DNA from: Negativicutes bacterium
GTDB lineage: Bacteria; Bacillota; Negativicutes; Anaeromusales; Anaeromusaceae
Assembly (NCBI GenBank): GCA_009929485.1
Contig: SAAJ01000018.1
Location: 1-58,675 of the forward strand
Reading direction: 5' to 3'
DNA length: 58,675 bases
Shown in pieces: positions 48,349-58,428 of the stretch. Position 1 is the stretch's first letter; every line of letters begins with the position of its first letter. A program made the translations under genes and the position numbers. The notes below the pieces were generated by a model. It was given only the letters and a program-made list of their open reading frames with translations. It searched no databases and was not told the origin of the DNA.

Positions 48349-49440
48349 CTACAAAGTACGGATTATTTGATACATAGAGTCTCGCTCCACCGGAACTCGG
48401 CCAATTTGACGAATGGTTTCAATAATTGTTTCCTGCGTCAAAAAGGTAGCCGATTTAGCGCCGGCGGCATGCATAATTTTTTCTTCGCTGACTGTTCCAT
48501 CAATATCATTAGCGCCAAAACCGAGCGCCAACTGTGCAATCGGCAAAGTCAGCATCACCCAGTAGGCCTTGACGTTGGAGAAATTATCCAGCATCAAGCG
48601 AGAAATAGCCATCGTTTTCAGCTCGTCCCACAAAGAGGTCCGCTGATGCGTCGCCTCTAGTTCCGTATTGCCGGGGTGGAACGGAAAACAAATAAACGTC
48701 TGGAAGCCGCCTGTTTCATCCTGCAGCGCCCGCAGCGACAACAGATGATCGACTCGCTCCTCCAGCGTTTCAATATGACCATAAAGCATGCTCGCATTGC
48801 TGCGAATACCCATTTTATGTGCCGTACGCTGTACTTCCAGCCATTCGGAAGCGGTTGCTTTGTTGGGACACAGCTCCTGCCGCACCCGGTCGGAAAGAAT
48901 TTCCGCCCCGCCGCCGGGAATGGACTGCAAGCCCGCCTCCTGCAAGGCTTTGAGCACTTCCGCCACCGACAACCCGGATAACTTGGAAAAATAATGAATT
49001 TCCACAGCGGTAAACGCCTTCCGATGCAATTGAGGCAGTTCCCGTTTCAGCATGCGCAGGACATCCAGATAGTATTCAAAGGGCCAATCCGGATGCAACC
49101 CGCTGACAATATGCAATTCCCGCAAGTCCGGGTCCTGCGCCGCCAGCTTAGCAAGCCGCAATACTTCCTCCTGATTCATAGCGTACGCCTTCTTGTCTCC
49201 TTCATCACGTCCAAAGGCGCAGAACAGGCAACGTGAAACGCAAATATTAGTCAGATTCACATGGCGGTTCACATTAAAATAGACATAATCGCCGCTTATG
49301 CGTTGGCGAACCAGATCCGCCAAATAACCAATACGCGCAATATCCGGCGAAGCAAAAAGCGCCAGCCCGTCTTCCTTGGACAGTCTCTCCCCGGCCCGGA
49401 CTTTTGCTTCAATCGTATCTAAGGGGGTCTTCAACAACAA
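48349..49440 (-). CDS. mqnE: Aminofutalosine synthase MqnE
   Basis: 363 residues. The radical SAM cluster cysteines are C67-x3-C71-x2-C74 (NICVSRCLFCAF). Diagnostic MqnE segments follow: HIVSGLHPDWPFEYYLDVLR, KAFTAVEIHYFSKLSGLS, GLQSIPGGGAEIL and MLYGHIETLEERVDH. The enzyme joins 3-(1-carboxyvinyloxy)benzoate with SAM to give aminofutalosine in the futalosine route to menaquinone. MqnC is similar but lacks this pattern. It starts at TTG with AAGGAG six bases upstream. No other mqn gene is in the window. Confidence 0.92.
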   Translation of the reverse strand: MLLKTPLDTIEAKVRAGERLSKEDGLALFASPDIARIGYLADLVRQRISGDYVYFNVNRHVNLTNICVSRCLFCAFGRDEGDKKAYAMNQEEVLRLAKLAAQDPDLRELHIVSGLHPDWPFEYYLDVLRMLKRELPQLHRKAFTAVEIHYFSKLSGLSVAEVLKALQEAGLQSIPGGGAEILSDRVRQELCPNKATASEWLEVQRTAHKMGIRSNASMLYGHIETLEERVDHLLSLRALQDETGGFQTFICFPFHPGNTELEATHQRTSLWDELKTMAISRLMLDNFSNVKAYWVMLTLPIAQLALGFGANDIDGTVSEEKIMHAAGAKSATFLTQETIIETIRQIGRVPVERDSMYQIIRTL

Positions 49441-49670
49441 ACACTCCTTCCCAACCCTTCGGCCAACGCCGCAGGGAAGAGAGCCTCAACTTATAGACGC
49501 TCCATTGTCCATTTTCTCCAAATTCTTCGCAGAAGTCAACCGAAAATTATTCTTTACCCCTTAGCTTTATACATCCTTGTCCACGCAGCAGGGGTTTGCA
49601 CTGGCTTCGTCGAATTTCACCTACTATATAATTATGTTTCAGCATCCTGTTTCCTGAAAGGAGACAAGCC

Positions 49671-53645: not shown

Positions 53646-53815
53646 TCCGCGCCCGGCGTCTGCGGCAAAACTTTTGCGAGCGAAGCGGTCCGCAGGGCCT
53701 GCAAAGCCAGCTGGAAGGATTAGAAATACGGATGTCTGAGCGCAGCGAGTTCCCGTATTTCCCTTTCAGCTGGCGACGCAGGAGCTGAGCGAGCTCTTGT
53801 TTTGACACAGATGCC
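53646..53815 (-). repeat. Family A structured repeat, copy 2
   Basis: The complement of the 6659-6830 element with high identity: GCGCCCGGCGTCTGCGGCAA, CTTTTGCGAGCGAAGCGG, AAATACGG...CCGTATTT around GTCTGAGCGCAGCGAG, and GAGCTCTTGTTTTGA. The AAATACGG arms and the CTGCGG/CCGCAG pair are intact, so structure rather than coding appears conserved. Confidence 0.85.
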
Positions 53816-53843
53816 GGGGGACGCTGCTAGATACCATGCCATC

Positions 53844-54091: not shown

Positions 54092-54141
54092 GATTGAACA
54101 AGAGAACCGGAGTCACGAGAGGGTATGACGGAGGCTGCGGT
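54092..54141 (+). repeat. Family B repeat copy
   Basis: ATTGAACAAGAGAACCGGAG followed by TCACGAGAGGGTATGACGGA, matching the module at 56315 and 58028. Confidence 0.75.
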
Positions 54142-54479: not shown

Positions 54480-55232
54480 ATGCACTTGCAATTATTTCGC
54501 CATGCCACCATGCATCTATCCTTGCCCGAAGGGACGATTTTAATTGACCCCATGCTATCTGCGCAAGGAGCCTTAGATCCTGTTCCCCACTCGCCAAACC
54601 CCCGCGCTAATCCCCTTGTACCTTTGCCGCTTTTGCCTAACGAGATTGTAAAAAGCAGCAATGCCTGCCTTGTCACCCATCTGCACCGGGATCATTTTGA
54701 TACTGCCGCAGCACAGCTCTTGCCTAAAGAGCTTCCTATTTTCTGCCCGCCTTTTGCCACTGCAGCGCTACAAGAACAGGGCTTCAAATCCGTCCAAGCG
54801 GCAGCGCCCCAAGCCCATTGGCAGCAGCTACGGTTGATGCTAACCGGAGGCCAGCACGGCTTGGGAGAGATTGGCCAACAAATGGGCGCAGTAGCCGGCT
54901 TTGTCCTTACCGGTCCAGCCAGGCCCCGCATCTACCTGGCTGGCGATACTGTCTGGTGCCCCGAAGTGGCCGAAGCGCTAGCAACGCATCAGCCGGACAT
55001 CATTATTCTCTACGGCGGCGGCGCTCGCTTTACGCATGCCGGCCCTATCACCATGACGGAAAAGGACATTCTCACCGTCTGCCGCCATGCACCCCAAGCC
55101 CAGGTTATCGTCGTGCATATGGAGGCCTTCGACCATTGCCTGCTTTCCCGCAATCAGCTTCGTCTAGATCTTGCCGCCGCGGGAGTCAACGCCCTCGTAC
55201 CTAACGATGGAGACATCATTACGTTGGATTAA
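54480..55232 (+). CDS. MBL-fold metallo-hydrolase (UlaG-like)
   Basis: 250 residues. The metal motif HxHxDH is in VTHLHRDHFD (about 62-71), a later histidine or aspartate in YLAGDTVW (about 157), and a final histidine in VVHMEAFDHC. The start MHLQLFRHATMHLSLPEGTILIDP resembles UlaG-like lactonases. Members hydrolyse esters, lactones or phosphodiesters with two metal ions; the substrate is unknown. AAAGGAG lies upstream of the ATG. A second, different MBL gene follows at 55591. Confidence 0.9.
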   Translation: MHLQLFRHATMHLSLPEGTILIDPMLSAQGALDPVPHSPNPRANPLVPLPLLPNEIVKSSNACLVTHLHRDHFDTAAAQLLPKELPIFCPPFATAALQEQGFKSVQAAAPQAHWQQLRLMLTGGQHGLGEIGQQMGAVAGFVLTGPARPRIYLAGDTVWCPEVAEALATHQPDIIILYGGGARFTHAGPITMTEKDILTVCRHAPQAQVIVVHMEAFDHCLLSRNQLRLDLAAAGVNALVPNDGDIITLD

Positions 55233-55265
55233 GATCGATTTTTTGCAAAATTTTCCTTTTTCCTC

Positions 55266-55294
55266 TTGACAAGTGTTAATTTTTCAAATATTCT
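55266..55294 (+). promoter_or_regulatory. Strong orphan sigma-A promoter
   Basis: TTGACA at 55266-55271, a 17-base spacer and TATTCT at 55289-55294, directly after the MBL gene. No coding gene starts within 250 bases, pointing to a non-coding transcript. Confidence 0.75.
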
Positions 55295-55301
55295 ATTAAT
55301 A

Positions 55302-55411
55302 GGTTCTCTCTTCATTGTGATCCCAGGGAAACCAACCGACGATGGTTTCCCTCCCATAACTCCTCCTCTTTTTCTGAACCCGGAGTCTCGCCAGACTCCG
55401 GGGCTTTTTTT
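55302..55411 (+). ncRNA. Candidate small RNA of about 110 nt
   Basis: It is bounded by a near-consensus promoter (55266-55294) and an intrinsic terminator (55379-55411). Internally GGGAAACCA at 55326-55334 pairs with TGGTTTCCC at 55343-55351, followed by the pyrimidine-rich run CTCCCATAACTCCTCCTCTT, complementary to ribosome-site-like GGAGGA. No ORF with a ribosome site lies inside. It matches no RNA family known to me. It could instead be the attenuated leader of the MBL gene at 55591, about 180 bases away, but a repeat lies between. Confidence 0.55.
55379..55411 (+). terminator. Terminator of the candidate small RNA
   Basis: CCCGGAGTCT pairs perfectly with AGACTCCGGG around CGCC, followed by GCTTTTTTT. 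Confidence 0.9.
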
Positions 55412-55440
55412 ATTTAAACGAGAAATAATGTGCAAGAAAC

Positions 55441-55490
55441 CAACAAGAGTAGAGGGAGTCAAGGGAGGGTTTGAAGGAGGGCTACGGAAC
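55441..55490 (+). repeat. Family B repeat copy
   Basis: CAACAAGAGTAGAGGGAGTC followed by AAGGGAGGGTTTGAAGGAGG and GCTACGG. It lies between the candidate small RNA and the second MBL gene. Confidence 0.75.
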
Positions 55491-55590: not shown

Positions 55591-56310
55591 ATGACGCAAG
55601 CAAATATAACGTATCTTTTTCACAGCGGCTACAGCGTAGAAACAGCCACGCGCTTTTTGGTCTTTGACTATTACCAGCCCAGCGAGAATCTGCAGTTTTT
55701 GACATCCCGCACCTTCCAAACTACGCCGCCCGCCTGGGTATTTGCTTCTCATTCCCATGGCGACCATTTTGATCCGGTCATTTTCTCCTGGGACTCCCCA
55801 GAGAACCCCATCACTTATGTACTCAGCGATGATGTATTTCCCAAGCGCATCCCCCCCGGCCACCGCTGTCACGTTCTCAAGGAAGGCGAAAGCCTTAGCC
55901 AGGACGGACTTGTTATCACCGCCTACGGCTCCTCCGACCTCGGCCTTTCCTTCCTGGTGGAAGCGGACGGCTTGCGGCTTTTCCACGCCGGCGATCTCAA
56001 CTGGTGGCATTGGAAGGGAGAAACACCGTCCGAGCAAGCCTATGCAAAAAACCTTTTTCACGAAAAAATGGCCGCTTTACGCGGCCAACAAATCGATATC
56101 GCCTTTTTTCCGGTAGATCGTCGCTTAGAGGAATTCCACTCTTTAGGCGCGGAAACCTTCGCCAAAGAAATCAAACCCACTTGGCTGCTGCCCATGCATT
56201 TCGGCAAGGATGTGGAAGCCAGCCGCCTTTTTGCGGCCAAAGCCGCCGAACTTGGCATAAAGACCAAAGTCATTGAACACGCCAACCAGCGCTTTGAAAT
56301 CACCCTATAA
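55591..56310 (+). CDS. MBL-fold metallo-hydrolase
   Basis: 239 residues. The metal motif is in ASHSHGDHFDP (about 49-59) and a later aspartate in FHAGDLNWWHW (about 134-144), with a final histidine in LLPMHFGKD. It starts YLFHSGYSVET, a pattern of small YcbL/UlaG-like hydrolases. Function unknown. ATG 55591 has AAAGGAG ten bases upstream. It shares little identity with the MBL gene at 54480 beyond the metal motif, so the pair is not a recent duplication. Confidence 0.9.
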   Translation: MTQANITYLFHSGYSVETATRFLVFDYYQPSENLQFLTSRTFQTTPPAWVFASHSHGDHFDPVIFSWDSPENPITYVLSDDVFPKRIPPGHRCHVLKEGESLSQDGLVITAYGSSDLGLSFLVEADGLRLFHAGDLNWWHWKGETPSEQAYAKNLFHEKMAALRGQQIDIAFFPVDRRLEEFHSLGAETFAKEIKPTWLLPMHFGKDVEASRLFAAKAAELGIKTKVIEHANQRFEITL

Positions 56311-58194: not shown

Positions 58195-58368
58195 GTCCGC
58201 GCCCGGCGTCTGCGGCAAAACTTTTGCGAGCGAAGCGGTCCGCAGGACCTGCAAGGCCAGGTGGAAGGATTAGAAATACGGTTGTCTGAGCGCAGCGAGT
58301 TTCCGTATTTCCCTTGCAGCCGGCTGCGCAGGAGCTGCGCGAGCTCTTGTTTTGACGCAGATGGCGGG
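58195..58368 (-). repeat. Family A structured repeat, copy 3
   Basis: Nearly the same as 53646-53815: GTCCGCGCCCGGCGTCTGCG, CTTTTGCGAGCGAAGCGG, AAATACGG...CCGTATTT around GTCTGAGCGCAGCGAG, GAGCTCTTGTTTTGACGCAG. It lies between the EamA gene and the rRNA operon end. Confidence 0.85.
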
Positions 58369-58428
58369 GAAGGACGAGGAGGAACCAAAATCATTTTTTT
58401 AAAACAAACACATCTATTATTTGACCGG

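Follow-up and report, generated by a model that had tools for sequence, protein, structure and literature searches.

Small RNAs (sRNAs) that recognize mRNAs through C-rich regions are known from Bacillus subtilis. The passages of PMC8216469 that treat them describe RoxS and FsrA as binding mRNA targets through such regions, which in RoxS pair with the target Shine-Dalgarno sequence, and FsrA and CsfG as sRNAs with C-rich regions and a similar predicted structure. Two surveys that looked for structured RNAs in genomes (PMC6429828 and PMC8632094) report motifs in Negativicutes; by its own account, the method of PMC6429828 largely misses sRNAs. In our literature search, we found no publication describing such an sRNA from Negativicutes.

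Here we describe a locus at positions 55266-55411 of a 58,675-base stretch of DNA, which we refer to as the window. We compared it across the four genomes that our collection has for its family, which are labeled as one genus and represent three species by their kinship labels; one of them, G002, is conspecific with the genome of the window. The locus is a unit in which a promoter and an intrinsic terminator enclose no plausible same-strand gene. Its features and those of its surroundings are as follows.

54480 to 55232, plus strand: upstream neighbor, a metallo-beta-lactamase-fold hydrolase (PF12706, E 3.3e-15)
55229 to 55357, minus strand: overlapping open reading frame (ORF) of 42 codons, with its ATG at 55357 and a ribosome-site-like sequence at 55358-55372
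55266 to 55294, plus strand: sigma-70-type promoter TTGACA-17-TATTCT, 10 of 12 consensus bases; -35 box TTGACA at 55266-55271, 17-nt spacer, -10 box TATTCT at 55289-55294; 0/29 columns vary among the four genomes, spacer included
55301 to 55325, plus strand: predicted 5' tail, mostly single-stranded (mean unpaired probability 0.61-0.64); 0/25 columns vary
55326 to 55351, plus strand: internal hairpin of the predicted fold, with arms at 55326-55334 and 55343-55351 and a loop at 55335-55342
55352 to 55378, plus strand: CU-rich single-stranded linker containing ACUCCUCCUC, complementary to Shine-Dalgarno (mean unpaired probability 0.90); 55353-55378 invariant in the four genomes
55379 to 55411, plus strand: Rho-independent terminator with a 10-bp stem, a CGCC loop and seven T
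55591 to 56310, plus strand: downstream neighbor, a second metallo-beta-lactamase-fold protein (PF13483, E 1.7e-8)

The terminator stem-loop reads CCCGGAGTCT-CGCC-AGACTCCGGG (as a whole CCCGGAGTCTCGCCAGACTCCGGG, 55379-55402) and is followed by GC and then by TTTTTTT at 55405-55411. Judging from the position of the -10 box, transcription would start at about 55301, giving a predicted transcript of 112 nt (55301-55412). This RNA folds at -37.6 kcal/mol, whereas 200 shuffled versions average -26.35 (sd 3.31), a z of -3.40, and the predicted fold places a weakly structured 25-nt tail, the hairpin, the open CU-rich linker and the terminator in that order. The hairpin stem has 9 pairs; a tenth, A-U, is exclusive to the window's genome among the four. 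This overall fold is predicted for the sequences of all four genomes, and the linker is open in every one, with the same mean unpaired probability in each. The first-pass annotation of this DNA had described the TTGACA-N17-TATTCT promoter, the terminator, a size of about 110 nt, a 9-bp internal hairpin and a single-stranded CU-rich stretch, and we recovered every one of these elements at the coordinates above. In our best reading, 55266-55411 is probably a stand-alone noncoding RNA gene of about 110 nt, most likely for a trans-acting sRNA that would mask Shine-Dalgarno sequences.

How does this unit compare with the described systems? Like RoxS/RsaE (RF01820, Bacillales), it is about 110 nt long and free-standing, and it has a CU-rich unpaired linker that could pair with Shine-Dalgarno sequences as the C-rich region of RoxS does. 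The likeness includes a terminator at the RNA end. The RoxS/RsaE motif consists of runs of C, and the linker of the unit carries CUCCUCC. RsaE is, however, absent from the list of Rfam matches to the unit at E<=5, and none of the four genomes has an RsaE match over the cut-off: the best, at 25 bits where 79 are needed, lies away from the unit. That weak match (L143, at G000:C73:1807-1895 on the minus strand, and L144) is shared by the two genomes of the window's species and missing from the remaining two. We found no sequence relation to FsrA or CsfG. By eye, the promoter of the unit holds a partial Rex half-site only, and no Fur box is recognizable in it. By analogy, our best reading is that the sRNA would work like RoxS/RsaE or FsrA without membership in the RsaE family.

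At gathering scores, Rfam gave no match at the unit, and its single match in the window, a 5S rRNA, sits at the edge; the first-pass annotation had likewise recognized no known RNA family here. The best matches below threshold are the ylbH leader (RF00516) on the minus strand, which scores 24.5 bits where the gathering cut-off is 50 (E 0.0015 for 201 nt searched), and some short or weak sRNA matches. In the ylbH match, the minus strand offers a hairpin, a GAGGAG stretch and a second hairpin, and it then continues antisense to the hydrolase gene. The NmsR (RcoF) sRNAs of Neisseria (RF02877) share with the unit a hairpin, a CU-rich open stretch with UCCUC and a terminator; their covariance match extends over the whole model at 15.8 bits against a gathering score of 52. 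The phylum is unrelated, and this is a likeness of layout only.

Could such an arrangement arise by chance? Promoter-like sites number 8 in 6.7 kb, where 4.9 (sd 2.1) are expected; hence, the promoter match taken alone is poor evidence. We scanned for promoters of at least 10/12 consensus bases that are followed, 40-250 nt downstream, by a terminator stem of 9 bp or more. The unit is the sole one of its kind on either strand of the window, and 20 dinucleotide-shuffled versions of the window contained none. The commonness of promoter-like sites, together with a terminator that begins 147 nt beyond the upstream hydrolase gene, would suit a terminator of that gene next to a fortuitous promoter, without any functional RNA. 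We regard this as very improbable: it leaves unexplained why no column varies in the promoter and its spacer (0/29), in the 5' tail (0/25) or in the linker (0/26).

The unit is present in a single copy in all four genomes, where the alignment shows it flanked by the same two genes, and the copies in the other three genomes are 97-98% identical to that of the window. Of the 152 gapless columns from 55262 to 55413, only 4 vary, and the T-run contains a single indel; by comparison, 72/126 columns vary in the 3' flank, 9/29 on the 5' side and 308/1467 across the two neighboring hydrolase genes. Genomes of different species are 98-99% identical in the unit. For the first hydrolase gene the figure is 83-88%, for the second 87-89% and for the 3' flank 62-73%; this flank is 98.3% identical between the two conspecific genomes. 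Conservation sets in at the -35 box and ends with the T-run.

The four substitutions all fall in or beside stems, and of the three in stem pairs, two retain pairing. Position 55331 changes A-U to G-U within the hairpin stem, and position 55395 yields U-A or U-G in the terminator, whose stem is kept; the change at 55343 costs one genome the terminal stem pair, and 55352 lies immediately outside the hairpin stem. Conservation of the hairpins in relatives was the sequence test set by the first-pass annotation. They are essentially intact in all four genomes, with 98.7% of 76 pair cells kept, while their surroundings vary far more. No compensatory double change is seen among these sequences because the four genomes are so closely related, two of them being one species.

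Strong conservation is not unique to the unit. In a two-genome comparison, a block at about 49403-49552 on the minus strand, which takes in the start of mqnE (aminofutalosine synthase) and the region upstream of it, is equally conserved (99.3% identical in windows from about 49403 versus 98.6% at the unit). Its identity is 99.3% over 146 nt to the second species and only 90% over 321 nt in the third. This block folds no better than shuffles and is possibly a conserved promoter or leader.

The first-pass annotation had stated that no ORF is present. That holds for any plausible plus-strand gene, but the minus strand does contain the 42-codon ORF at 55229-55357. The ribosome-site-like AAAAGAGGAGGAGTT directly precedes its ATG in all four genomes, and the CU-rich linker is the complement of this sequence. 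Perhaps, then, what is conserved is a gene for a small protein on the minus strand (MGGKPSSVGFPGITMKREPINRIFEKLTLVKR...), with the CU-rich stretch as no more than the complement of its ribosome site? The first 32 codons encode an identical protein in the four genomes, and all three changes in this core are at synonymous third positions, as coding would also give. The preservation of AAAAGAGGAGGAGTT-ATG and the weak ylbH match on this strand point the same way. However, third positions of the core vary in just 3 of 32 columns, whereas 210 of 489 do so in the neighboring genes (Fisher p 1.2e-4), and the constraint is therefore stronger than that of coding and acts at the nucleotide level. Beyond the core, 55240-55261 carries four changes, all at first or second codon positions, followed by a frame-shifting indel, so that the products are 42, 44, 40 and 65 aa long and differ in each genome at the C-terminus. 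Neither codon-like substitutions over the whole ORF nor a conserved end, as would mark a small protein, were found.

The surroundings of the ORF likewise speak against a gene. On its strand there is no promoter-like site upstream until 56645, its upstream flank is unconserved between species, and the conserved terminator is oriented opposite to it. A search of 376 further genomes of the class found no convincing homologue; the best match (E 0.017) has an internal stop. A minus-strand gene is thus an improbable account of the locus, and we judge the ORF to be a shadow that the RNA gene would cast. The start codon beside a ribosome-like complement is no great coincidence, because the complement of an RNA that pairs with ribosome sites must resemble one. 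It is also conceivable, though highly unlikely, that both strands are read: the plus strand would then give an anti-Shine-Dalgarno sRNA, the complement of its linker would be the ribosome site of the peptide, and the sRNA would be the antisense repressor of that peptide.

The unit lies on the same strand as the downstream hydrolase gene, and its terminator is about 180 nt ahead of that gene at 55591. It might instead be a 5' leader with a conditional terminator, that is, an attenuator or riboswitch for this metallo-hydrolase. By eye, a weak antiterminator could form between ACUCC (55359-55363) and the GGAGU within the terminator. Such a leader is unlikely given what lies between terminator and gene: this stretch is 62-73% identical between species and varies in length, with up to 39 gap positions. 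No alternative fold appears in the predicted RNA of the window's sequence, where the centroid structure equals the minimum-energy structure, and the plus strand matches no known leader family in Rfam.

We return to a trans-acting sRNA. The unit would supply both the sigma-70-type promoter that starts the RNA and the terminator that ends it. Its invariant unpaired linker ACUCCUCCUCUUUUUCU, perhaps together with the invariant 5' tail, would pair with the Shine-Dalgarno regions of target mRNAs and so hinder ribosome binding on them, and Hfq may take part in the pairing. An hfq gene is present in all four genomes. A U-rich 3' end, as in Hfq-dependent sRNAs, suits Hfq. We place most weight on a translation-blocking sRNA of this type because of the fit of its pairing to start regions, the presence of hfq, the U-rich end and the precedent of RoxS and FsrA.

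The first-pass annotation had suggested that the CU-rich stretch could pair with ribosome sites. The mean duplex energy of the linker was -15.5 kcal/mol at 300 start regions versus -10.2 at internal windows, with the starts drawn from 340 kb of one genome (9.6%) and picked partly by Shine-Dalgarno strength, which favors the linker. When 20 shuffled linkers were paired with the start regions, they averaged -13.6 kcal/mol (sd 0.94; best -16.1), and at least one of them equaled the real linker. Pairing with ribosome sites is thus plausible, with starts preferred, but the preference comes from a biased set of starts and is matched by at least 1 of 20 shuffled linkers. These computed energies plausibly fit Shine-Dalgarno masking.

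The RNA might, on the other hand, act by binding a protein, as a sponge or sequestering RNA, rather than by base pairing. An unpaired CU stretch between two stable hairpins would suit such a role, and the invariant hairpin loop has no start preference (-7.1 kcal/mol versus -7.9 at internal windows). None of the analyses described here pointed to a known protein-binding motif, and we consider a protein-binding role quite improbable.

We then consider candidate targets of the base-pairing sRNA. Target prediction with the CU-rich stretch had been proposed in the first-pass annotation, and we screened for patterns able to pair with the linker or with the 5' tail. Several of the sites occupy Shine-Dalgarno positions in the window's genome. 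The genes behind candidate sites presumably encode a fumarase subunit, polynucleotide phosphorylase, rubredoxin, an RNA helicase and FabH. For some candidates, identical or similar site letters recur in other genomes, matched by letters only. The duplexes of the 15 candidates (-13.5 to -27.6 kcal/mol) fall inside the range of the 300 background starts (down to -30.5), and we claim none of them as a target. Two sites that recur across genomes by their letters, one for the tail and one for the linker, do not precede a long ORF. Searching for an operator with the 20-nt promoter stretch AAGTGTTAATTTTTCAAATA, we found a zero-mismatch copy solely at the unit in each of the four genomes and no other site at up to 2 mismatches; one site with 3 mismatches occurs in one genome.

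Purine-rich repeats occur near the gene. One family (AACAAGAGTAGAGGGAGTCA...) is found at 55441, 56369, 58090, 46207 and 37402 and another (CAAGAGAACCGGAGTCACGAGAGGGT...) at 54096, 56317, 58031 and 46267, both confined to the plus strand within the window. They are much rarer in a second species, with 2 and 1 copies in a 340-kb sample. We rejected the idea that these repeats act as a sponge: duplexes of the linker with the repeats close to the gene have energies of -15.6 to -21.6 kcal/mol, within the ordinary range of start regions. The window also holds two copies of a 174-nt repeat (53646-53819 and 58196-58369, 93% identical) in stretches without an assigned gene.

How widely is the unit distributed? 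By blastn against 380 genomes of the class, we found no convincing relative among the 376 outside the genus. Matches at E<=0.1 occurred in 37 of the 380 genomes, 4 of them being the genus itself; among the matches listed for the others, lengths span 17-35 nt. We inspected 12 of these non-genus loci: several are complements of the ribosome sites of other genes, and none is a similar unit. The covariance search advocated in the first-pass annotation, run on the same 380 genomes, likewise yielded nothing convincing beyond the genus. At E<=1, it matched 17 genomes, with the four of the genus at 146-150 bits and the rest at or below 29.5 bits, under stricter filters by which weak relatives may be lost. 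Inspection by eye of 10 of the 13 non-genus matches found none related.

Two of the weak covariance scores, 25.9 and 24.3 bits, belong to loci on the minus strand in another genus of the class (L044, 1501-1606, and L046, 1501-1611). They share a conserved hairpin and a strong second hairpin with each other but no sequence evident by eye with the unit, and this element is perhaps another sRNA or leader. A 20-base pattern from around the hairpin loop had a single match in the species collection, a Cohnella record that lacks the rest of the RNA. The unit has no match in the viral collection and none in the plasmid collection. Within reach of these search methods, the putative sRNA appears restricted to the genus.

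We conclude that the unit is new in detail and ordinary in kind: it is a real feature and an sRNA candidate conserved in one genus, for which Shine-Dalgarno masking is the likely mechanism. If the host is a member of the Sporomusaceae, which is plausible, the locus would be a clean and testable candidate for Shine-Dalgarno masking by an sRNA in a Firmicute that has two membranes and Hfq; otherwise, it would be one more lineage-specific sRNA. In a Sporomusaceae host, the sRNA would also bear on the question of a repeated origin of C-rich sRNAs.
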